Shown in pieces: positions 3,515 through 16,652 of a stretch of 64,000 nt of DNA. Location of the stretch: IMG/VR virus record IMGVR_UViG_3300028822_000042, positions 1-64,000 of that record; one strand, 5' to 3'. The notes beneath the pieces are model-generated. The model searched no databases. It saw nothing but the letters and a program-made list of their open reading frames with translations, and had not been told where the DNA came from. Origin of the DNA: a virus. Numbering within the stretch: position 1 is the first letter of the stretch; each line of letters starts with the position of its first letter. The translations under genes and the position numbers were made by a program.

Positions 3515-4303
3515 ATGGGAGGTGAAGGTTCAGGCAAGGCTAAGGGAGATTTACTTATCCTTGATGGCCATAAAGTAGAGAATGGCAAGGTCTCTAAGAC
3601 AGACTTCTTTAACTTCCTGGCCACAGACATCTCTGACTATTCAGATGTCAAGATGACTCCTAAACAGGCCCTCAAGTTCAAGAATTCCTTTGTCCGGATG
3701 ACACATGGAGTGGGAGCAGCCATTCCTATGATCTGTGTTGGCCCTAAGTGTCCAAACAAGCTTTGTGTTTTTCATGAGACAAAGACATGGCCCCTTTCGA
3801 GGCAGTGCTTGTACGAGGCCCGAATGGTCCAGTACCTCTTTCAAGCCTACATGGAAGACCTCGGTGTTGACCCTGAGAGCCCAACAGAGCTAACTCTTGT
3901 CAATGAGCTTGTAGAGGCAGACATCCTGAGCTATAGGGCTAATCTTGGTCTCTCTGGCGCCATAGACGAAGAGGCAGCCACACTTCTAAAGACCTCAGTC
4001 ATTGAGAAAGGTGAACATCTAGCAGAGACTACTGTTGTTCACCCTCTACTTGAAGTTAAAGAGCGAGCTAACCGTACCCGCATGAGAATCCTAGAGTCTC
4101 TAGCTGCTACACGTAGAGAAAAATACAAGAAAGCAGCAGCCCTCAAGAAATCAGAAGATTCAGATGCTTCTAATTTCCTCGCCGAGCTAAGAGAGCAATT
4201 CTCCACTTCTTCCGAGAAACAGATCGATTCTCTTGATAAAATAAGAGAAGACGCTAAGAAAGTAGCAAATGATCTAATTATAGATGCTGATTGGGAGCAG
4301 TGA
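3515..4303 (+). CDS. Cys-cluster protein, possible small terminase or packaging accessory
   Basis: A 262-residue protein. Residues 74-98 hold four cysteines spaced C-x4-C-x4-C-x13-C (ICVGPKCPNKLC... RQC), a plausible metal-binding site. The N-terminal 50 residues and the helical C-terminal half (charged helices from residue 150) resemble phage proteins coded before the large terminase. I remember similar 'GP.CP....C' proteins in that position but cannot name the family with confidence. The large terminase is 6 kb downstream, so a small-terminase role is inference only. Codons from here on favour CTT/CTC for Leu, unlike the first two genes. Confidence 0.55.
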   Translation: MGGEGSGKAKGDLLILDGHKVENGKVSKTDFFNFLATDISDYSDVKMTPKQALKFKNSFVRMTHGVGAAIPMICVGPKCPNKLCVFHETKTWPLSRQCLYEARMVQYLFQAYMEDLGVDPESPTELTLVNELVEADILSYRANLGLSGAIDEEAATLLKTSVIEKGEHLAETTVVHPLLEVKERANRTRMRILESLAATRREKYKKAAALKKSEDSDASNFLAELREQFSTSSEKQIDSLDKIREDAKKVANDLIIDADWEQ

Positions 4304-4309
4304 TGTCCA

Positions 4310-7300
4310 GTGGCAAAACTTACAGATAAAGAAGTCCAGAGATTTTTTGATGATATTAATAAATCTCCTGGAGGAGTAAAGTCTACTGAGCCAGCTTTCC
4401 AAAGATATAGAAAGCAATTCCTCAGAAATATAGACTTTAATGACATTAAGAAGTACAGACCTGAACAACTTATCAGAGGAGCACGTACTTCAGAAGAACT
4501 CTTTATAATAGGAGAATATCTTAGTAAAGAGTGGGGGTCTAATAATTGGTGGTGGCAAGAGTACCACCAACGTAGAGTTACCCTTGCTCACCTGCCAAGT
4601 CTATATGGTTCTACAATTGACAAAGCAACAGGGAAACAGAGAGGACTTTGGGGTGTTCCTGTTAAACCAGAGACCTATATTCGTTCTTCTAAGGCCGGAC
4701 CACAAAAGTTTGGTGTCAATAGAAGACTTTTTTCTAGGTTTGCCAACTGGGAACAGATAACAGGCCAACAGAATCTATTCTCTTTAACAGAGACTCCTAG
4801 TGGACCTGCTATTAGAGGTTGGAAGCCAATTAAACCACCTGTTCTTCCTTCTAATGCTCCTGCAAATGCTATTGTTTTTGATTTGGAGACCACAGGTCTT
4901 CTTGATAATGAGAACCTAAATGTTATCTCTGCAGGATACTTTGATACTGGAAAACCAGATAAAGCTCCTATAGGCAAATACGCTTCTTTCGATAAAAGCC
5001 TTAAATATGATGCGCCGATTAGAAATAAGATTATCCCTCAATGGGAAAAAGCTGTTGCTGAACTAAAACCAAAATTATTATCAGAACAACAGCTAGTAGA
5101 AGACTTTATCAAAAGAGCAGAATCTAGTTCTAAGACTCATGCCCTGATGGGCTATAACATTAAGCAGTTTGATCTGCCAGTTCTGTTCTCTTCAGCTAAG
5201 AAATATGGTCTTGAGGGTAAACTAGAAAAAGCTGTTAAACAGTCTCATATTGTTGATGTAGCTGAATATGCTCAGGCTTTTATATCTAAACAGCTAGGCG
5301 GAACAGTAGTTGGCTGGGAGCAATCAGAACTTGGATTTAAACCTTTAGGGTGGCAATTAGAGAATGTAGCAGCATCGCTTGGATATAAGAATTTAGGTGG
5401 TGCTCATGAAGCCAGAACTGATGTTGATATGACTCAGTTTGTCTGGCGAAAGCTTAAAGACACTAAGAAATGGGATGAAGCTGCTAAACAATTTGATAAA
5501 GATCTTTTATTAAAATCCATACCAAGAGCAAAAGGTTACTCTCCTGTTGTCATTAAGAAAGGCATGGAGAGAGTTAATTTTGCTGCTGAGATGCTAAAAG
5601 ACGAATCTAAGTATCTTAGATCGTTTACTCATCACTTAGAAGAACTTTATGGTAAGGGGAAGCCTACATCAACACTAGGCAAGGCTGTTAAAGGCAAAGG
5701 TCTTGGGCTTGGTAGCATAGCTAGTTATTCAGCCTCATTTGTGGGCTTGAATATGATTCTTCCAGGTAATTTCTGGCAGAATGCATTTACCTCTGTTACT
5801 TGGGAAGCAGCTAGATTAGGAGCCAAGAAAGCAGGTGTTAAAGGCTGGAAGACTTGGCTTGCAGCAGGACTTGGTTCTGCTGTCGGTAATGCTATGTGGA
5901 TGGGAGCTAGTGCTCTCTCTAGTGATCCATCAGATGTAGCAGTAACTGAGTCTGGGTTTTCAGGCAAAGATGATGCTTATAATTTCATTCAGGGCTTAGG
6001 AGAACAAGGTCTAGCTCCAGAGGTAAGACATGAATTAACAGAATTTGGTTCCGGCTGGCGCGGAAGTAGAGATCTTCCTTCTTCTCTTATGGGAGTGCCA
6101 ATAGACCCTCAGGTTTTGGCCTTCAGAAGAGATGTTATTGAAGATAAAGAAGAATTAGCAGAACTAAAACAAGACATTAAAGAAAAACAAGCTGAAGCTC
6201 AAGCTAAGCTTGGTGATTTTGATCCTTCTCAGTTAGGTCCTATATCAGGCCCTGTTGCAGGTCTAGCCAGAAATAAAAGTCTTAAAGAAGTAAATCTATC
6301 TGACTACAAATTAACAGTAGAAGATGCAGACACTATTTTCCTTAGCAGAAAAGGTCTTGCTGGTCTCTTCTCTAAAGATATTGCAGTACGTCTTTCAGGT
6401 GTAGATGCTCCTGAGGTTGCAAGTCATGCAGATGATCCTATGGAAGATGTACGTATCTGGCAGGAACAAGCTGGAGGACAATGGGCTACTGAACAGTATA
6501 AGAAGCTAGTAGAAGAACAAGATAACTTAAGACTTGTTATTGATGCGAACAACAAGACTTATGGTCGTCGTCTTGGTGTTCTAATTGGAGATGAAGGAAC
6601 AAACCTTGCTTTAGAGAGTGTTAGGAAAGGTTTAGTTGCTGCTCTTCCTTTTGGTAAGTCATCAGAAGATGTTGTTAGCCGTAGAGCAATAGCCCAAGCA
6701 GAAGAAGAAGCCAAACAGAACGAAGCTGGTATCTGGCAGTTTGCTAGATATAAGGCCATTTCTGAGGCTACTGAAGAAATTGGTCAACCAATTACTTTCA
6801 ATGTTCTTACTGAACTTACTAAAGTTGCTAGGAATCTTAATCTTGGTACTTATGGTTCATTCTTAGAATCCTTAGGCGAACAACAAAGAGAACTTACTTA
6901 TCAAGAAGCTCATACCGCTCGTCGAATTGGCCGTGTTCTCAAGAAGACACATGGCAAAGCTAGATTCTCTCAAAAATTTAGCGGCAAAGACGACAACTAT
7001 AATACTGTTGAGGGACTAAGACATGATGGAGGCTTATCAGAAGATATTCGTAAAGATTTAACTCAATTTGGTTCTGGATTCGATATATTCAAACCAGTGC
7101 TACAATATGAATCTATCAGTGAAGCTAAGGATAGATTTATTGAAGACAAGAAGAAGAGATATGCAGTAGATAAGAAGTCTAGATTCTCCGGCCGGGACGA
7201 CCAATATAACACCATTGAGGGCTTGCTTCATACAGGTATGGCTAAAGATGTCCGTCAAGCCTTAACAGAATTCGGCTCTGGTTGGGACCCTGTACGTGCT

Positions 7301-8650
7301 ATGGCTAGAGCTATTTATAAGAATCTAGATGAAGAAGAAGCACTTGATGTATTTAGAAGGAGTGATCTTTTTAAGGGAGCAGTTTCTAAAGCTCTTAAAA
7401 CTCCAGAAAAACAATTAGGTAAAGGTGTTGCTGGTTCTGTTAAAGGATATACAGCTGAAATAAAACACGGCATTGAAGGAGTCCCTACTCAGTTTGGTTT
7501 TGCTGTTAAAGAAGCAAGTAGAGGGGAAGCATTTGCAGAGCATATGGCGATAGCAAAACTAGATGAAGTAGAGCAACTATTGCTTAAGAAGAGATACAAA
7601 AACCTAGAGGATGCCATGATTGAAGCAGAGAAAAGTGCTTTGAGCAAACAAGCACATGATCTTCCCTCTCTGTATGGCACTGGTAAGGATTTTGGTCTTG
7701 ATGAAGATACGATTATCATGGAGCAATTCAAAGGCACTCCTATTAGAAATATTAATAGAGAATTGACTCCTGGTGAGATTACAGATTTAAGTCAATCAGT
7801 TCAGAGAATGCATGCTGCTGGCATTACACATGGCGACCTTCATAGAGGTAATGTCATGCTTACAGAAGAAGGAAAGATAGGAATCATAGACTTAGGAATG
7901 GCCGAACGTCTAACAGACCCCAGAATGAGTAAACATCACTGGCAAGCAGTCATGAACGATCCTGTACAGAAAGCAGCACAGAAAGAATTAGGAAGAAAGG
8001 TAGATGTTGAAGAGTTTTCTAATATGCTAGATGTAGCAAATGTACATGCTGTTGATCTTATTTCGCAAGGTGCAAAGAAAGAAGCAAGACCTTATGTACA
8101 AGTTATAAATCAATTATTAAGCACAACTGAAGCTAATTTAATTGAAGCAAAAGCCTCACAAGTGTTTCAGATGTATAAGCAAATAGGAAAACCAGCTTCT
8201 ATACCCAAGAGAGTTGGTTCTAGTAGTAAAGTTATTCCTCCTGTTCAAGATGATTATATTAGCCCTACAGCCAAGACAGATTTAAATACTTTGCCTTTTG
8301 ACAAGACTCAACCTATGACGTCTAAAATTGACGTTCAAGACAATATGCTTAATCAGAATCAGCAAGGAATCTCTTCATCACCAAATTTACCTATGGGCGA
8401 AGGTACTGGAACAGGAGGAGGTCGGATAAAGAAGAATTCTGAATCGATCAGAAGAATGAGAGCTGAAAGGAAGAAGAGTGCATACGAAGATAGAGTTGTT
8501 AATGCTTCTGATGTTAACATTCCTAAAGACTCTCAGAGAAGTAAAAGAATGAAGAGATTTAGAGAGGTTAGTCGTTCTGCTGTAGGTATAGGACATAGAT
8601 CTGCCCACAATGCAGGCAGAAAACACTCAAAATTTAGTACTGTAGTATAA
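4310..8650 (+). CDS. Giant multi-enzyme protein: DEDDh exonuclease, SNase and kinase-like domains
   Basis: A 1446-residue protein starting at GTG, about a dozen bases after GGGAG. Residues 185-395 are a DnaQ-like exonuclease with D191/E193 (FDLETTG), D288 (NIKQFD) and H366-D371 (HEARTD), all catalytic positions of the DEDDh class. Residues 480-545 are hydrophobic. Residues 660-775 are a staphylococcal-nuclease domain with D674-T675, R694, D699, E702 and R753 in place. Residues 1045-1215 resemble a protein kinase or RIO/APH-type phosphotransferase: LGKGVAG loop, K1067, HGDLHRGN (1174-1181) and DLG (1194-1196). Three FSGKDD repeats lie between domains, and the tail is very basic. Such domain mixtures are known as polyvalent proteins of phages, thought to travel in the particle. 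Delivery with the DNA is inference. Confidence 0.85.
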   Translation: MAKLTDKEVQRFFDDINKSPGGVKSTEPAFQRYRKQFLRNIDFNDIKKYRPEQLIRGARTSEELFIIGEYLSKEWGSNNWWWQEYHQRRVTLAHLPSLYGSTIDKATGKQRGLWGVPVKPETYIRSSKAGPQKFGVNRRLFSRFANWEQITGQQNLFSLTETPSGPAIRGWKPIKPPVLPSNAPANAIVFDLETTGLLDNENLNVISAGYFDTGKPDKAPIGKYASFDKSLKYDAPIRNKIIPQWEKAVAELKPKLLSEQQLVEDFIKRAESSSKTHALMGYNIKQFDLPVLFSSAKKYGLEGKLEKAVKQSHIVDVAEYAQAFISKQLGGTVVGWEQSELGFKPLGWQLENVAASLGYKNLGGAHEARTDVDMTQFVWRKLKDTKKWDEAAKQFDKDLLLKSIPRAKGYSPVVIKKGMERVNFAAEMLKDESKYLRSFTHHLEELYGKGKPTSTLGKAVKGKGLGLGSIASYSASFVGLNMILPGNFWQNAFTSVTWEAARLGAKKAGVKGWKTWLAAGLGSAVGNAMWMGASALSSDPSDVAVTESGFSGKDDAYNFIQGLGEQGLAPEVRHELTEFGSGWRGSRDLPSSLMGVPIDPQVLAFRRDVIEDKEELAELKQDIKEKQAEAQAKLGDFDPSQLGPISGPVAGLARNKSLKEVNLSDYKLTVEDADTIFLSRKGLAGLFSKDIAVRLSGVDAPEVASHADDPMEDVRIWQEQAGGQWATEQYKKLVEEQDNLRLVIDANNKTYGRRLGVLIGDEGTNLALESVRKGLVAALPFGKSSEDVVSRRAIAQAEEEAKQNEAGIWQFARYKAISEATEEIGQPITFNVLTELTKVARNLNLGTYGSFLESLGEQQRELTYQEAHTARRIGRVLKKTHGKARFSQKFSGKDDNYNTVEGLRHDGGLSEDIRKDLTQFGSGFDIFKPVLQYESISEAKDRFIEDKKKRYAVDKKSRFSGRDDQYNTIEGLLHTGMAKDVRQALTEFGSGWDPVRAMARAIYKNLDEEEALDVFRRSDLFKGAVSKALKTPEKQLGKGVAGSVKGYTAEIKHGIEGVPTQFGFAVKEASRGEAFAEHMAIAKLDEVEQLLLKKRYKNLEDAMIEAEKSALSKQAHDLPSLYGTGKDFGLDEDTIIMEQFKGTPIRNINRELTPGEITDLSQSVQRMHAAGITHGDLHRGNVMLTEEGKIGIIDLGMAERLTDPRMSKHHWQAVMNDPVQKAAQKELGRKVDVEEFSNMLDVANVHAVDLISQGAKKEARPYVQVINQLLSTTEANLIEAKASQVFQMYKQIGKPASIPKRVGSSSKVIPPVQDDYISPTAKTDLNTLPFDKTQPMTSKIDVQDNMLNQNQQGISSSPNLPMGEGTGTGGGRIKKNSESIRRMRAERKKSAYEDRVVNASDVNIPKDSQRSKRMKRFREVSRSAVGIGHRSAHNAGRKHSKFSTVV
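5957..6058 (+). repeat. FSGKDD protein repeat, copy 1 (residues 550-583)
   Basis: The pattern FSGKDDxYNxIxGL, then a short GL/GM block, VRxxLTEF and GSGW. It sits between the hydrophobic stretch and the SNase domain of the giant enzyme. The copies differ at the DNA level, so this is an old duplication or a recurring binding motif. Confidence 0.8.
6977..7081 (+). repeat. FSGKDD protein repeat, copy 2 (residues 890-924)
   Basis: FSGKDDNYNTVEGL followed by LSEDIRKDLTQFGSGF. One residue longer than the other two copies. It lies between the SNase and kinase-like domains. Confidence 0.8.
7184..7285 (+). repeat. FSGKDD protein repeat, copy 3 (residues 959-992)
   Basis: FSGRDDQYNTIEGL followed by AKDVRQALTEFGSGW. 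It directly precedes the kinase-like domain; a charged helical spacer of about 34 residues separates it from copy 2. Confidence 0.8.
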
Positions 8651-8682: not shown

Positions 8683-9069
8683 ATGAGTTTTTTTGGTAGG
8701 GCAATAGGTGGCGGTATAGCTGGCGGCCTATTGACTGGTGACCTTGGTGGTATAGCTGGTGGTGCTGCTGCTGGTGGACTTGGTGGATGGGCAATCGGCA
8801 AGACACTTGCCGACAGAACCACTGGCATGTTTACAGGTGGCATGGGAATGATAGGAGATGCTGCACTGAGGGCAACTTCTACTATTGGCAAACGTGGAGC
8901 ATTTAATGCTGCAAGAAGAATGGATAGAGGCATAACTAGAGCAGCTAGCTTCTTGGGAAAGAATCAATTAACGACAAACAAAGTTGGAGGTGCTGCTATG
9001 ACTGCATTAGGAACAGGAGCAGGCATACATATTGGTTCTTCTGTCTTAGCGTCTAACAGGAGGTACTAG
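8683..9069 (+). CDS. Glycine-zipper protein, tandem paralogue 1
   Basis: A 128-residue Gly/Ala-rich protein. Residues 5-50 hold closely spaced small residues (IGGGIAGGLLTGDLGGIAG), a glycine-zipper pattern that lets helices pack in membranes. The ends match its neighbour at 9072-9461: 'TGDLGG.AGGA', 'STIG.R..F.A', 'TNKVGG.A' and a final 'IGSSVL.SN...Y'. The start has AAGGAGG eight bases before it. Lying directly after the giant enzyme gene, it may help move virion proteins or DNA through the host envelope (inference). Confidence 0.7.
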   Translation: MSFFGRAIGGGIAGGLLTGDLGGIAGGAAAGGLGGWAIGKTLADRTTGMFTGGMGMIGDAALRATSTIGKRGAFNAARRMDRGITRAASFLGKNQLTTNKVGGAAMTALGTGAGIHIGSSVLASNRRY

Positions 9070-9071
9070 TA

Positions 9072-9461
9072 ATGAATTTTTTTAGAAATGCATTAATGGG
9101 TGGTGCTATTGGTGGTTTAGCCACAGGTGATCTCGGTGGTGTAGCCGGTGGTGCTTTAGCTGGTAGTGCTGGCGTTTGGGGTGCGCGTAAACTGTTAAGT
9201 AATAAGAATGCTTCTGGAATGGGAGCTGCTCTCCTTGAGAGAGGGGGATATGGTCTTACTGCAGCGGCTTCTACTATTGGCAACCGTAAGCTGTTTGATG
9301 CTTCAATGAAGATGAAAGGCATGGCAGGTAGAGCTGCTGGTTATTTAGGACAGAACTCTGCTATGACAAATAAGGTTGGAGGATATGCCTTTGCAGGATT
9401 AGGTGCTATGGCTGCCGGGAATATCGGTTCTTCTGTTCTTAGGTCTAATGGAGGTTACTAG
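9072..9461 (+). CDS. Glycine-zipper protein, tandem paralogue 2
   Basis: A 129-residue paralogue of the gene just upstream, separated by two bases. It keeps the Gly-zipper start (MGGAIGGLATGDLGGVAGG), the central 'AASTIGNRKLFDAS' and the 'IGSSVLRSNGGY' end. The central part differs, so the duplication is not recent. Probably a membrane-active or small virion protein; no enzyme motif is visible. Confidence 0.7.
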   Translation: MNFFRNALMGGAIGGLATGDLGGVAGGALAGSAGVWGARKLLSNKNASGMGAALLERGGYGLTAAASTIGNRKLFDASMKMKGMAGRAAGYLGQNSAMTNKVGGYAFAGLGAMAAGNIGSSVLRSNGGY

Positions 9462-9464
9462 TCT

Positions 9465-10259
9465 ATGGATTGGTTCGATAAGAATCCTTTAGGCCCACAA
9501 GATATAAGTACATTTGGTGGCTTCCGCAGAGAGGCCATGTTTGATGCACATAAGTGGGGTCGATCTGTCTTTGCAAACTCATTTGCTAGACAAGGATTCG
9601 CATCTGTTGCCTTCGCTCCTACTGCAGGTGAAGCATGGAAGGCTTCTTGGAGAAGAACTAAGAGACAAGGAAGTGCTAAACATATTCAGAATTTAAGATC
9701 TATGCTTTCTAATGTGGCTCCTGGTTCTTCTGAATATAGAAATATTAATAAAGCACTATCGAAGGCAGAACAAGGTACAACCAAGATGGGACTTGCTAAG
9801 CGAGTGGGTGGGTTCGCATTAGGTGGTGCTTTTGCTCTTCTGCCTGCATTCATAACTCCTGGTGGTCTTCCTGAGAAGGGTAGAGCTGTAGCAGGTGGTT
9901 TGGCTGGTCTTGCTGGTTGGGAAGTTGGCTCTAAGGCGGGTATGGGTGTAGGTGCAGCAATAGGCATGATGATACCTATTCCTGGCATGGCAGCTGTTGG
10001 AGGTGCTCTTGGATATGTGGCTGGTGGTTTTCTTGGGGCTATTGGTGCAGACGAAGGTACACAAGCCTTAATGCGTATTCCAGATAATATGGTAGAGAGA
10101 GAACGCAAGAGAAGAAATCTTAACTGGAGAGGAGATCAAACTGCATTCATGACTCGTTCAGCTCATACTATGAGACAACAGTCTTTGCAAGCTATGAATA
10201 GAGGTATGAACAATGCTCGCTCTATGTTAGGCAGAGAAGGTGTGTTTCTGCACCAATAA
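9465..10259 (+). CDS. Hydrophobic glycine-zipper protein
   Basis: A 264-residue protein. The N-terminal 105 residues are soluble and basic. Residues 113-193 are a long Gly/Ala-rich hydrophobic block (LGGAFALLPAFITPGG... GYVAGGFLGAIGA) with room for two or three membrane helices in glycine-zipper style. The C-terminus (SLQAMNRGMNNARSMLGREG) is a polar helix of a kind I associate with other virion-delivered phage proteins. It is the third glycine-zipper gene in a row. A pore or ejection role is inferred from composition and position. Confidence 0.65.
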   Translation: MDWFDKNPLGPQDISTFGGFRREAMFDAHKWGRSVFANSFARQGFASVAFAPTAGEAWKASWRRTKRQGSAKHIQNLRSMLSNVAPGSSEYRNINKALSKAEQGTTKMGLAKRVGGFALGGAFALLPAFITPGGLPEKGRAVAGGLAGLAGWEVGSKAGMGVGAAIGMMIPIPGMAAVGGALGYVAGGFLGAIGADEGTQALMRIPDNMVERERKRRNLNWRGDQTAFMTRSAHTMRQQSLQAMNRGMNNARSMLGREGVFLHQ

Positions 10260-10328: not shown

Positions 10329-13300
10329 TTGGATAATGAGATTGATAATTTAGAGGATTTAAGAAAATTAGATCTGCCGTTTGATGTAGATGAAGTATCG
10401 TCTCAGTGTCATCAATGTGTAAGAGATCAGCTAGAAAAGTACAAAAAACAGGTAGATGAGTCAGGTAAATCTGTTGCAAATAGATTTATAGTTCCTTGTC
10501 ATGGCATCAAGAAAACAATTATAGATCCTGTTAAAGAAGCGACTCTTACAGATAAACAGATAGAAACATTAAAAGCAGTAAATGATGTTGTCAGTTTTGC
10601 AGGTCATTATCTCAAGTTACCTGATAGTAGTTTATGGAATGCTAGATGGTACCAAGAGCAAGTTCTTAAATGCACTTCAAAGCGTAAAGTTTTAAGAATT
10701 GGCCGACGATGTTTAGTTCCTGGTTCTATGGTCCTGATGGCCAATGGCAAATGGAAGCCTATTGAAGATATTAGAGTTGGAGAATATGTTGCTTCTCGAA
10801 ACGCAAAAAACCAGTTAGTCTCAAAGAAAGTTCTTTATGAACATGATAATGGAATTAAAGATGTCTTTAATATTAAGATATCTAATGGAATGGAGATCAC
10901 ATGCACTTCAAACCATCCATTGCTGGCACTAGAGACACTAGAGTTTGGTAAAGGAGTTAGAAAGGTTTGGAAGTCTTTAGAAGATGGTTTATCTGTTGGA
11001 ACTAAAATTGTTGTTGCCAAACATTATGACCGCTGGGGTGAAAAACATAATCCTAGTTTGATGAAGTTGTTTGGTTATATGTTGACAGATGGTTATTTTG
11101 GCAAACCAGGTCAAACTCCAAAATTTACAAATAATAACAGACAAATGGTTTCAGAGGTTCAATGTCTTGCCAAAGAACTTTTTGATTATGACTGTTCTAT
11201 CCGGCCTAAAGGAAATGGATTCGATATCTATCTTACAGATGGAGATCATAGTTCTATTAATAAATTCTCTGAGACACTTAAGACGTTTGGGCTTCACGGT
11301 GTAAAGTCTGCCAGAAAACATATCTCAGATTTGTTTTTTGATTATGATAAACAAAGTCAAATGGCTTTAGTCAATCGCATGTTTTCTGGTGATGGTGGTG
11401 TTTCATTACACAACAAGAGAGAAGAACCTAGAGCAGAAGTCTTCTTAGTCTCATCTAGTAAAGAAATAATTAGACAGGTTCAACTTATCCTTCGCAAAAT
11501 TAATGTTGAATCATTCATTTCTCATGACAATAGACAGATTGATGTTATGAGCTGTGGAGTCATTACTGAATCTGACTCTTGGAAACTCCGTATATCTAGA
11601 GCAGAAAGTATTGAGAATTTCTTTGCAAATGTTGGTCTTGTTTACGGCAAAGAAGATGTTTCAAACAAAGCAATATCTATTGCCAATTCAATCAAGAAGA
11701 GAAGAAGATCAGGAAGTAAGCAGTTTAGACATGAGACGATTAAGTCTATTGAGCATATAGGCGAATCACAAACATATGATATTGAAGTAGAAGATACTCA
11801 TAATTTTATTGTAGACAATATCGTATCTCATAATACCGGAAAGACAGACTTGGTCTGTGTTGAGATCTGTTATTACCTTTTTACTAGAAGAAACATAAAA
11901 CTTGTAGTTGTTGGTCCCCAGAAATCTCATACAGAAGAGATTATTAATCGTGTCAGAGCCTTTATTTCTAATAATCCCATGATGAAGGATTCTGTGGTTA
12001 GAGATGTTTCTGCTCCATATTATGAGATAAAACTTCGTAATGGTTCTCGCTTAAGGGGATTTGCTGCTGGAACTAAAGGCAAACAGCAGGGCGTATCTGT
12101 TCGTGGTCAAGATGCGGATAGAATCTACATTGAGGAGATGGATTACGTTGATGAGAATGCTATTCAGGGAGCTATATTCCCTATCATGATGACGAATCCA
12201 GATACTGCTCTTATCGGATTCTCAACTCCTTCAGGTTTCAGAAGTCCTTATTATAACCTCTGTGAAGAGAGCCCTCAGTATAAAGAGTTTCATTTTACAT
12301 ACAAAGTACTTCCATGGTGGAGAAATGTTGAGTTAGAGAGAAATTCATTCACAGAGGAACAATGGACTCATGAGTATCTAGCAGAGTGGGGTACTTCAGA
12401 GTCTGGTGTTTATAAGCCAGAATATATTGATAGAGCCATAACTGAATACAATTATGATGATATGGTTCGTAATTCAGTCTGGAAATATACTATTGGTACA
12501 GATTGGAATGAGAAATTTGGTACTGAGATTGTCGTTCTTGGTTACAATACTCTAACTACAATGTTTCAAGTAGTTGAGTCAGTTCATATTGAAAGATCAG
12601 AGTTTACACAGCTTGCAGGAGTATCAAAACTTATAGAAATGAACCGTAAATGGAGACCTTCTTTCATTTATATAGATGCCGGTAACGGTTCAACTAATTA
12701 TGAACTTCTTAGGAAAAAAGCCTATGATAATAGTAGATTTGATGGAGATAGAGACACTGCACGTCTATTAAGCATCCTTAAAAAATATGATGCTGGTGCT
12801 GCTTTAGAGGTTAGAGATCCTGTTTCACAGCAGAAACACAAAACTCCAGCTAAACCTTTTATGGTTAATTCCTCTGTGCGCATGTTTGAGCAAGGTAAAA
12901 TTAGAATCTCTAGTCGCGATAAAGTCTTAGAAAAACAGCTCAGAAGTTATATTATTGAGAGATATACACCTACAAAGACTCCTGTTTATGGTCTAGATGA
13001 TCCAAAATTGGGAGATCATAAGCTAGATGCACTAAATCTTTCTATTGTTGCTTTTCAGCTAGAATTTAATGATTTACATGCTACTAAAGTCATAACAGAT
13101 ATAGGCGTATCTGTTGACCCAAGAACGATATCTAAGAAATCTTCTAACCCTAGAGAAGAGTCATTTCAGCATAAGAGACCAGAACCAAGAGACTTAAATG
13201 GAGGAATTAGAACTCCTCTAGAAGAACGAGTATTTGCTCATACTCCTGGCAGGATAGATAATGGTCTTGAAGGTATTAGAACCAATCGTCCTGGATGGTC

Positions 13301-13397
13301 TACAGATGAAGAAGACAAGCATATACAGAAATTTTTACAGAAGAGACGTTCAAGGTTTAGACTTCGCTCTGGTCGACCAAGAAGAACAAATATTTAG
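10329..13397 (+). CDS. terL: Large terminase subunit interrupted by an intein
   Basis: The packaging motor: an ATPase with a C-terminal nuclease that pumps DNA into the prohead and cuts it. The start is TTG, placed by AAGGAG seven bases upstream. The precursor has 1022 residues; removing the 375-residue intein (128-502) leaves 647, a normal size. Splicing rebuilds the Walker A motif GRR-TGKT. Walker B is RIYIEEMD (E602/E603). The RNase-H-like nuclease has D725 (GTDWN), D783 (YIDAGN) and D896/D900 (GDHKLDA). C27, C30 and C57/H58 near the N-terminus may bind a metal. Packaging depends on intein removal, because the uninterrupted ATP site does not exist in the precursor. Confidence 0.93.
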   Translation: MDNEIDNLEDLRKLDLPFDVDEVSSQCHQCVRDQLEKYKKQVDESGKSVANRFIVPCHGIKKTIIDPVKEATLTDKQIETLKAVNDVVSFAGHYLKLPDSSLWNARWYQEQVLKCTSKRKVLRIGRRCLVPGSMVLMANGKWKPIEDIRVGEYVASRNAKNQLVSKKVLYEHDNGIKDVFNIKISNGMEITCTSNHPLLALETLEFGKGVRKVWKSLEDGLSVGTKIVVAKHYDRWGEKHNPSLMKLFGYMLTDGYFGKPGQTPKFTNNNRQMVSEVQCLAKELFDYDCSIRPKGNGFDIYLTDGDHSSINKFSETLKTFGLHGVKSARKHISDLFFDYDKQSQMALVNRMFSGDGGVSLHNKREEPRAEVFLVSSSKEIIRQVQLILRKINVESFISHDNRQIDVMSCGVITESDSWKLRISRAESIENFFANVGLVYGKEDVSNKAISIANSIKKRRRSGSKQFRHETIKSIEHIGESQTYDIEVEDTHNFIVDNIVSHNTGKTDLVCVEICYYLFTRRNIKLVVVGPQKSHTEEIINRVRAFISNNPMMKDSVVRDVSAPYYEIKLRNGSRLRGFAAGTKGKQQGVSVRGQDADRIYIEEMDYVDENAIQGAIFPIMMTNPDTALIGFSTPSGFRSPYYNLCEESPQYKEFHFTYKVLPWWRNVELERNSFTEEQWTHEYLAEWGTSESGVYKPEYIDRAITEYNYDDMVRNSVWKYTIGTDWNEKFGTEIVVLGYNTLTTMFQVVESVHIERSEFTQLAGVSKLIEMNRKWRPSFIYIDAGNGSTNYELLRKKAYDNSRFDGDRDTARLLSILKKYDAGAALEVRDPVSQQKHKTPAKPFMVNSSVRMFEQGKIRISSRDKVLEKQLRSYIIERYTPTKTPVYGLDDPKLGDHKLDALNLSIVAFQLEFNDLHATKVITDIGVSVDPRTISKKSSNPREESFQHKRPEPRDLNGGIRTPLEERVFAHTPGRIDNGLEGIRTNRPGWSTDEEDKHIQKFLQKRRSRFRLRSGRPRRTNI
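10710..11834 (+). mobile_element. Intein with LAGLIDADG-type homing endonuclease
   Basis: It begins at Cys128 with the block-A pattern CLVPGSMVLMANG..KPIEDI..GE. Block B is TCTSNHPLL. The end is TYDIEVEDTHNFIVDNIVSHN followed by Thr503, giving the classic C-terminal His-Asn plus a Thr nucleophile. Between the splicing blocks are two LAGLIDADG-like helices, LFGYMLTDGYFG and LVNRMFSGDGG, each with the acidic Asp-Gly that coordinates metal. The element therefore looks complete for both splicing and homing. Insertion in the P-loop of an essential ATPase is a typical intein site, since the target DNA is conserved. Confidence 0.92.
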
Positions 13398-14678: not shown

Positions 14679-16652
14679 ATGTCTACAAGTGATGAGTATA
14701 AAAGTACTAAATCTTCAGATGCAGTTTCTGACAAGACAGAAGAACCACAAGTTAATTCCGCTAATCCATTCTCTAGTCAGGACTATCATCAAATTGTTTC
14801 TGCTTTTGAGAAACAATCTACTGATTGGGCAGAAGAAGACTATGCTTTAGCATCTCATTACAAAGATACTTACTCTACTAGAAATTTCTCTGAGAGAGTA
14901 AAAGAGCAGATGGCTCACTATCCAGGTCTTCATCAACCCGCCACTGGTGTGCCTGATGAAGATCCGTATAAAACAAATGCTGAAAAACAAGCAGAAAGAA
15001 GGCAGAATTTTTGGACAGATGCAATGAGCAGTCCAGATGCCTTTATGAATGGTCTGCGCTCTAGAGAACAAGACTTTGATTATACTACTGTATTTGGTTC
15101 TGACGCATCAGCTAAAACTAAAGCAGAGAATGTAGGAAAAATTCTTACAGAATGCATTCCTTGCTTTGGTCGATTACTAGATGCTGATGGATTAGTGCCA
15201 GATGGAGACCTTTTAGAAGTACATGCTTTAAATATAAATCTAAGAAAAGATCTTATTTCAGACACAAAGAAGCTTTTAAATAATCCTGGTTCGTATTTGG
15301 ACATTTGTGAGCTTCTCAATTTGCTATCTCATCAATGTGTTCAGGATCTTTTTGCTATATTGGCTCTGCTGACTCAGTATTTAGCTAAGTTGAACCTAGA
15401 TATCAAATTTAATTTTGACTTTATAGAAAATCTTGTTGGAGCTATTTTAAGCCCATTCCTTGATGCTCTTAGTCAGTGGTTAGATAAATGGATACAGCTA
15501 ATTATTGAACCTCTAGTTTGTGTAGTTGACCACATTAATGAAGTTATAGTTACTTCGCAAACTATGAAGATTCCTCTCTCTTCTGCTGGTATTGGCATTG
15601 ATGCTGATCTTGGCGTACAAGATGGAGTTTTCAGCAAACAAGATTCAGCTTCTACAAAGAAAAGACAACATAAGACTAAAAAGTCTAAATGGTCTGACTC
15701 AGAGATGGATAGATTTAGCGATCTCCCTCCTGGGCACTATACTCCAAGAAGACCTACTGTTCCAGATGAAGAAATACAGATGTCTGCTACAGAGATTAAG
15801 GAGTCTTGGAATCCAAGTATGTCTGAGCAGCAGAGAGAAGAAACAAATCAAAAGTGGGAAGAAATCAATAAACAGAGAAAAGACAAGAAACTTAGCTATA
15901 CTTCTGACATTTATAAAGAAAGAAGAGATGGGACTAGATGGAGTAAGGATAATGTTCCTAATTCTGAGAAGTTTAGCGCTGGTTTTCAGTTTGGTGATGA
16001 ATACCATCCACCTGAAAAACAAAGCCTTCCTAAGACAGCAGACAGCTACTTTGACACCGGACCATTAACAAACTCAATTGTTCAATTGAGAAATATTCTT
16101 CAAGCTGGGATTCAGTATGTAAGAGATTGGTTTATCTATATTACACAGATGGTATACGATCTTCTTGGTACTGACTTCGGTTGGATGAAAAACAAGACAG
16201 GTTCTAGTTTTCTAAAATCAGATCTTATTAAGATGATTTCTCTTGTGAAGGCAATTATTCAAGCAGTTTCTAAAAATGGACTTAGATGTGGAATAAATAC
16301 TAATTTAGATCAAGATCAAGTAAAGTTTATTCTAGAAGACACCTTAAACAAATTCTCTCCTACTAAGTTTGAAGTTATGGAGAATGGAGATATTAAGGTT
16401 ATACCTTCTGGAGGAAGTTTGCCTGATACTAAAGATACATCTGATGCTGTGCAAGCTCAGATAGAAGAACAAGATAAAATAGATATGGGAGAAGGGATAG
16501 GTAAAGTAACAGATAAAAAGACAGAAGAGACTCTGCAGGATTCTGTTAAATCAGGTATCATAGTTAAAAATTGCTTAAGAGACTTAACCTCTGATGAGGC
16601 AGCCAGAGCAAGGGAGTGGATCTTAGAATATGAGAGGAGATCAAATGGCTGA
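14679..16652 (+). CDS. Large conserved-type structural protein between terminase and portal
   Basis: A 657-residue protein. Residues 1-150 and 310-440 are polar and probably flexible. Residues 155-300 are dense in Leu/Ile with Cys (CIPCFGRLL, LLNLLSHQCVQDLFAILALL, IIEPLVCVVDHIN), an amphipathic helical block rather than clear transmembrane helices. I have seen proteins of this composition between terminase and portal in other large phages but cannot name a family. Location points to head or neck assembly. The last codons overlap the portal start. Confidence 0.6.
   Translation: MSTSDEYKSTKSSDAVSDKTEEPQVNSANPFSSQDYHQIVSAFEKQSTDWAEEDYALASHYKDTYSTRNFSERVKEQMAHYPGLHQPATGVPDEDPYKTNAEKQAERRQNFWTDAMSSPDAFMNGLRSREQDFDYTTVFGSDASAKTKAENVGKILTECIPCFGRLLDADGLVPDGDLLEVHALNINLRKDLISDTKKLLNNPGSYLDICELLNLLSHQCVQDLFAILALLTQYLAKLNLDIKFNFDFIENLVGAILSPFLDALSQWLDKWIQLIIEPLVCVVDHINEVIVTSQTMKIPLSSAGIGIDADLGVQDGVFSKQDSASTKKRQHKTKKSKWSDSEMDRFSDLPPGHYTPRRPTVPDEEIQMSATEIKESWNPSMSEQQREETNQKWEEINKQRKDKKLSYTSDIYKERRDGTRWSKDNVPNSEKFSAGFQFGDEYHPPEKQSLPKTADSYFDTGPLTNSIVQLRNILQAGIQYVRDWFIYITQMVYDLLGTDFGWMKNKTGSSFLKSDLIKMISLVKAIIQAVSKNGLRCGINTNLDQDQVKFILEDTLNKFSPTKFEVMENGDIKVIPSGGSLPDTKDTSDAVQAQIEEQDKIDMGEGIGKVTDKKTEETLQDSVKSGIIVKNCLRDLTSDEAARAREWILEYERRSNG

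Follow-up and report, generated by a model that had tools for sequence, protein, structure and literature searches.

A repeat-linked phage protein of exchangeable enzyme modules in a conserved slot beside the terminase

What would a phage do with two nucleases and a kinase on one polypeptide, and is that polypeptide real? Both questions are raised by the first 64,000 nucleotides (the window) of an 86.5 kb virus record (IMG/VR IMGVR_UViG_3300028822_000042), in which an initial annotation had placed an exonuclease, an SNase and a kinase in one protein of 1446 residues ahead of the terminase gene, and had likened it to the polyvalent proteins of phages. The gene of this modular protein, P0001, is an intact single open frame (4310-8650, plus strand, GTG start) encoding three unrelated enzyme domains, and the residues that the annotation singled out are as named (Asp at 191, Arg at 694, Asp at 1176). 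Its account of the domains, the position and the polyvalent likeness stands; it had not reported three copies of a repeat, the swapping of modules and a conserved C-terminal tail. The features are as follows, with the basis of each in brackets.

3515..4303, plus strand: left flank of the slot, conserved, homologue of ME3_9 (sequence comparison)
4310..8650, plus strand: modular protein P0001, 1446 aa, GTG start; same order in relative L021
4835..5509, plus strand: DEDDh 3'-5' exonuclease module, aa 176-400, with D191, E193, D288, H366, D371 (phrog_192, motif census)
5957..6070, plus strand: FSG repeat 1, aa 550-587 (motif pattern)
6065..6964, plus strand: SNase module, aa 586-885, Pfam core 693-810 (PF00565, alignment A4, AF2)
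6974..7087, plus strand: FSG repeat 2, aa 889-926 (motif pattern)
7181..7297, plus strand: FSG repeat 3, aa 958-996 (motif pattern)
7310..7954, plus strand: predicted RIO-like kinase module, aa 1001-1215, HGD with D1176, then DLG (alignment A3, AF2, Foldseek/VIA)
8483..8647, plus strand: basic C-terminal tail of P0001, aa 1392-1446, ...AVGIGHRSAHNAGRKHSKFS (tail profile, loose G..H pattern)
8683..9069, plus strand: Gly-rich, membrane-type small protein (sequence)
9072..9461, plus strand: Gly-rich, membrane-type small protein (sequence)
9465..10259, plus strand: right flank of the slot, conserved; Gly-rich hydrophobic protein with conserved C-terminus (sequence comparison)
10329..13397, plus strand: terminase large subunit with intein, aa 137-502 (profile searches)

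The exonuclease matches phrog_192 (E 1.7e-13, aa 184-444) and stays under the cut-off for Pfam RNase_H_2 (19.2/22); all five residues of the DEDDh motifs D-x-E ... D ... H-x4-D are present, and over 24 aligned copies D191 and E193 are kept in 23 each, D288 in 18, H366 in 17 and D371 in 14. The SNase is recognised by PF00565 at 46.9 bits against a cut-off of 21, with R694 present; its active-site residues D, D, T, R, D, E, R are invariant in the 14 distinct copies of alignment A4, and the AF2 model of the module has a pLDDT of mostly 85-98. A 2317-position profile of unknown function, phrog_8809, matches 9 of 39 repeat proteins, and in both proteins mapped the match is confined to the SNase.

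The third module, doubtful by sequence, where its Pfam matches are short and mixed (APH 29.1 bits with a cut-off of 23.2, ABC1 24.4 with 22.9, Pkinase 26.7 with 31.7), is a kinase by its predicted fold. The AF2 model, built from 19 aligned copies, has a core pLDDT of mostly 80-96; Foldseek on the predicted structure places RIOK2 on top (E 7.5e-8), and VIA-align gives Z up to 13, with DAPK1, PLK4 and Rio2 tied, in a list that re-ranks the Foldseek matches and leaves room for other folds. The features of a kinase-like, RIO/ABC1-like fold are found (Gly loop, Lys, Glu, HxD, DxG), with the catalytic Lys, the Asp and the DxG invariant in 19 of 19 aligned copies (A3); the catalytic residues of all three enzyme domains are thus in place in one polypeptide, as had been claimed. 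Kinases of polyvalent proteins are described as carrying extra sequence that separates the catalytic His from the Asp, and as having lost their entire C-terminal subdomain (Iyer et al., 2017, PMC5512222). On the second trait, the homology profile of the module stops about 20 residues past the DLG, and two weaker helices follow in the model. On the first, P0001 has HGD at 1174-1176, and [HN]xD stands uninterrupted across A3, so that the module would be a different, RIO-like kinase outside the polyvalent-type subfamily.

An identical P0001 (100%) occurs in IMG/VR contig 3300000374_000001, which possibly holds the same data and is thus no independent proof of the frame. The relative L021 (3300036647_000024) is divergent, with a protein of 1195 residues that is 45% identical in its N-terminal part, and shows the same order of exonuclease, SNase, repeat and kinase; a frame artefact, the concern attached to the initial annotation, is thereby made less likely.

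What recurs between the modules is a motif of about 38 residues, FSGKDDxYNTIEGLxHxGxAxxxRxxLTDFGSGW, here called the FSG repeat, with three copies in P0001; its degenerate DNA pattern finds 3 matches against 0.00 expected from shuffles. Over 102 repeats the most constant positions are F-G-S (100, 95 and 102), a G (96), a T (90) and an R (89); the Glu of T-I-E-G is found in 80, with D, S, Q or N elsewhere, and about a fifth start without the first motif positions (the DDxY columns are gapped in 19-23 of 102). A hydrophobic stretch stands before 17 of 95 repeats, a total differing from the 102 because different sets were searched, as against 2.5% of random positions. Where residues are identical, the same codon is used in 46% of cases within and 41% between viruses; with values this low in both, the repeat is kept as protein and not as DNA. 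The protein identity of copies is 60% within one protein and 56% between viruses, a small difference that would fit one shared partner rather than local copying. In two predicted structures the repeats have a pLDDT of about 30-55 and the modules mostly 80-98, which favours a connector or linear motif over a globular domain, with the proviso that low pLDDT from shallow alignments is no proof of disorder. A TIEGL at residue 114 of W14284, considered as a second motif-bearing head protein, is not kept in homologues and is thus a coincidence.

Altogether 58 distinct proteins carry the FSG repeat, all from uncultured large myoviruses of a 0305phi8-36-like kind. Two overlapping motif scans of IMG/VR (20 and 46 loci) reduce to 39 distinct proteins once duplicates are discarded, their frames spanning 340 to 2419 residues, some truncated at contig ends. 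Each locus has exactly one ORF with the repeat, and the repeat is limited to one gene in every one of the 39 records that were searched over their full length (up to 191 kb). It was not found in 50,697 phage records (tblastn, E up to 10) and from 72,556 plasmids (E up to 1); 27 pattern stretches were obtained from 84,980 prokaryote genomes, with zero confirmed, and no report of the motif was found in the open-access literature. The C-terminal tail of P0001 also recurs, its profile matching 15 of 60 proteins and the loose G..H pattern 28 of the 39. A terminase scan of prokaryote genomes gives 3 short MAG contigs. One of the three, from a Ca. Fermentibacteria MAG (L073), carries a phage terminase and, of a repeat gene, the C-terminal part, which has a weak repeat and ends in a PGKGH tail; this sole host hint is weak and too little for naming a host.

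The repeats mark module boundaries, namely the starts of kinases and the ends of SNases, far beyond chance. Profiles find the exonuclease in 13 of the 39 proteins, the SNase in 14 and the kinase in 24 (27 copies). A kinase starts at most 25 residues after a repeat in 19 of the 27 copies (5000 random placements give a mean of 4.4 and a maximum of 12), an SNase ends at most 25 residues before one in 11 of 14 (random mean 1.7, maximum 7) and starts at most 25 residues after one in 6 of 14 (random mean 1.6, p 0.0016), these tests overstating independence in that the sequences are related. Kinase ends show no association with the repeats (1 of 27), and 8 of the 27 kinase copies have no recognised repeat directly ahead.

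The set of modules varies from virus to virus. With E, S and K for exonuclease, SNase and kinase, the order is E-S-K in P0001 and L021, E-K-S in L037, S-K in L043 and K-S in L048, and L062 has two kinases; the 58 proteins divide into K (18), EK (8), ES (6), SK (5), ESK (4), E (4), S (3), EKS (1) and KS (1), and 8 match none of the three profiles. Beyond these three, a Cas4/RecB-like nuclease is present in 9 of the 58 proteins and in L103 (phrog_1706 in 7 of the 39), and there are HExxH motifs, 19 of which lie in 17 of the 58 proteins (mean 2.1, maximum 7 in 300 shuffles); several inter-repeat segments are without any match in the scans run. The repeat protein of L059 (5847-13079) matches the profile of the window's terminase intein, and an intein thus seems to be inserted in it.

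The gene has a fixed place. A terminase-led scan, independent of the repeat, kept 78 loci, 37 of them with both flanking genes, and 34 of these 37 complete slots hold one repeat-bearing ORF; the position before the terminase and beside membrane-type proteins, already pointed out in the initial annotation, is thus conserved. In the seven relatives nearest to the window, the gene at the left flank aligns over 95-100% of its length where present and the terminase over 99-100%; P0001 aligns over 86% in L060 and over 18-36% in the other six (L046 ends at a contig end). The slot is conserved, its flanks are collinear, and the modules are swapped between viruses. Three of the 37 are exceptions: L097 has a slot without a sizeable ORF, and L101 and L103 have large ORFs bearing another linker, the GHD class.

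L101:3324-6491 and L103:2938-5646: GHD-linker ORFs (pattern)

This linker, KGHD..[HR][WL]GR...DF.PGSSW, is found by pattern in four copies in L101 and three in L103; all linker copies in the two are of this one kind, a kinase lies directly behind one of them in L103, and a search for the class returns only these two contigs and none in phages. Judged from these patterns, the GHD class shows linkers to be changeable as a whole set. Elsewhere in the collection, L110 and L153 have the left flank and no repeat gene, L109 has the repeat gene ahead of the left flank, and in L059, L063 and L067 repeat genes lie behind tail-sheath-type genes, away from the terminase.

The neighbourhood of the slot has features of its own. 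The homologue of the left flank in ME3, ME3_9 (KU935715, L069:4078-5373), is annotated as an RNA (guanine-N1-)-methyltransferase, doubtfully, because the window protein matched no such family. The terminase intein lies at 10737-11834 in the window and contains a LAGLIDADG motif; terminase ORFs are about 3 kb (intein-sized) in many relatives and about 2 kb in others, and ORFs of homing-endonuclease type (HNH-like or GIY-YIG-like, translations judged by eye) adjoin the terminase at L110:8008-8571, L132:2420-2956, L153:5108-5527 and L109:8187-8801. The right-flank protein and its homologues (L092, L097, L110, L132, L073) have the C-terminus ..MRQ.S....LG.EA..LH in common by eye, perhaps another packaging tail. 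Further on, the ORF at 14679-16652 has a match to Pfam ocr (a DNA mimic) near aa 545-604, below the cut-off (20.5 vs 25 bits).

Homologues of terminase and portal both lie in the window, the context of a portal-terminase packaging system. Its terminase, capsid and sheath are about 27-32% identical (tblastn) to those of the isolates ME3, KLEB27-3 and MTATph1, and the portal is alike by profile; by these comparisons the lineage is of the 0305phi8-36 type, to which the annotation of ME3 refers. The isolates agree with the window in these proteins, in head-gene order and in both slot flanks; unlike the virus of P0001, they have no repeat gene in the stretches examined, where the best repeat-profile match is insignificant (i-E 1.5). 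The gene is thus not essential to the wider lineage, and L097, L110 and L153 are likewise without it.

Swappable effector modules on a common scaffold are also a trait of polymorphic and multi-effector toxins. P0001 differs from these in being viral, in having its repeats between the modules, and in that its Pfam matches include no secretion-type N-terminus. Nearer are the polyvalent proteins (Iyer et al., 2017, PMC5512222), which likewise join at least two unrelated enzyme domains in one large protein, kinases and peptidases among them; the likeness proposed at the outset is borne out in two defining features, the unrelated domains and the portal-terminase phage. According to section 6 of that paper, the toxin scheme with repeats in the middle does not apply to polyvalent proteins, and a shared repeated linker such as that of P0001 is not described there; the word SNase, for a module that P0001 has, is absent from its main text, and the kinases differ by the insert described above. 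P0001 is thus read as a repeat-linked, module-swapping relative of the polyvalent phage proteins, the closest known kind. Repeats are also on record in 0305phi8-36, whose 'paralogue family a' (about 50 residues, internally repetitious) is described as a virion anchor; by that description (PMC2147016) it differs in its distribution, occurring in six ORFs where the FSG repeat keeps to one gene. In T4 and giant phages, head ejection proteins and the Alt/IP internal proteins offer a working model of head cargo directed by a targeting or processing peptide; the peptide described there is an N-terminal propeptide, whereas the FSG motif recurs between modules (PMC5694885).

These considerations favour, as the probable explanation, an effector of polyvalent type: a string of interchangeable enzyme modules with the repeat as common connector, which would travel in the head and enter the host along with the DNA. 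The position, the variable enzymes, the Gly-rich membrane-type neighbours and the conserved basic C-terminal tail all point to head cargo that is ejected together with the DNA as the likeliest use, one that the initial annotation also suggested, with disabling of the host as a possible outcome, in agreement with giant-phage ejection proteins (PMC5694885) and with the proposal for polyvalent proteins, whose own packaging and delivery with DNA is presented as a prediction (PMC5512222). The low-structure repeat at module edges would be the shared connector, read by one conserved partner of the lineage (a head, portal or ejection protein, or the prohead protease), and any module between connectors could then be carried in the head and delivered. 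Once inside, the nucleases may target nucleic acid of the host or of rivals, the kinase may modify a host factor, and in relatives an HExxH protease may cut a host protein.

The repeats could instead be the cutting sites of a polyprotein, at or near which a prohead protease would act in head maturation, freeing separate enzymes inside the head. Their place at module edges, their low predicted structure and the conserved (T/S)-I-E-G, which resembles the A/S-x-E sites of giant-phage proteases, are all consistent with this; AXE/SXE sites and the removal of propeptides from ejection proteins are described for such phages (PMC5694885), and W18822 (18822-20945), between portal and capsid, is in the position of a prohead protease and matches MTATph1 CDS0006 (E 4e-7), with KLEB27-3 gp014 annotated as prohead protease in the same position. 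The Glu, however, is not invariant and is surpassed in constancy by F-G-S, R and T, a motif of 38 residues exceeds the needs of a cleavage site, the GHD linker has K-G-H where the FSG repeat has E-G-L (the classes being aligned by eye), and W18822 is a candidate protease by position only; cleavage is on balance unlikely, if well worth keeping in mind.

Similarly doubtful is a multifunctional enzyme that stays outside the virion and works in the infected cell, for example in host DNA breakdown or in DNA maturation beside the terminase. Its two nucleases and its place next to terminase and head genes would suit such a role, and packaging is itself an inference; yet a housekeeping role in DNA metabolism would hardly allow modules to vary so freely (kinases, HExxH, none of the three), and the hydrophobic stretches often found ahead of repeats also speak against it. 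Nor does the exchange of modules at the repeats make these convincing as DNA recombination sites for cassettes, with a peptide of no role: synonymous codons diverge within a gene nearly to the extent seen between viruses, copies within a gene are hardly closer in protein identity than copies between genes, and this disfavoured reading is very improbable. That an assembly chimera or frame error fused separate genes is scarcely credible, since against the metagenomic nature of the record stand the matching order in divergent L021 and the single repeat-bearing ORF per record, in all 39.

If the effector reading holds, it might extend, more tentatively, to a standard cargo connector, a linear motif specific to the lineage (FSG, with GHD in a sister group) that one virion component recognises, so that enzyme cassettes between connectors would be loaded into the head and injected as a variable effector set from a single slot next to the terminase. 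As far as the searches show, what is new is the connector held in common, its restriction to a single gene per virus record, and a slot that is conserved although its modules are swapped. Polyvalent proteins have so far been seen as multi-domain fusions of a loose kind; the modules of P0001 and its relatives are delimited by a recognisable connector, and new candidate effectors can thus be found between the repeats, among them nucleases, kinases, HExxH proteins and the unmatched segments. The issue of injection is thereby sharpened to whether the motif tags the protein for packaging or for cleavage; were it a tag, proteins of choice could be put into phage heads by means of it.
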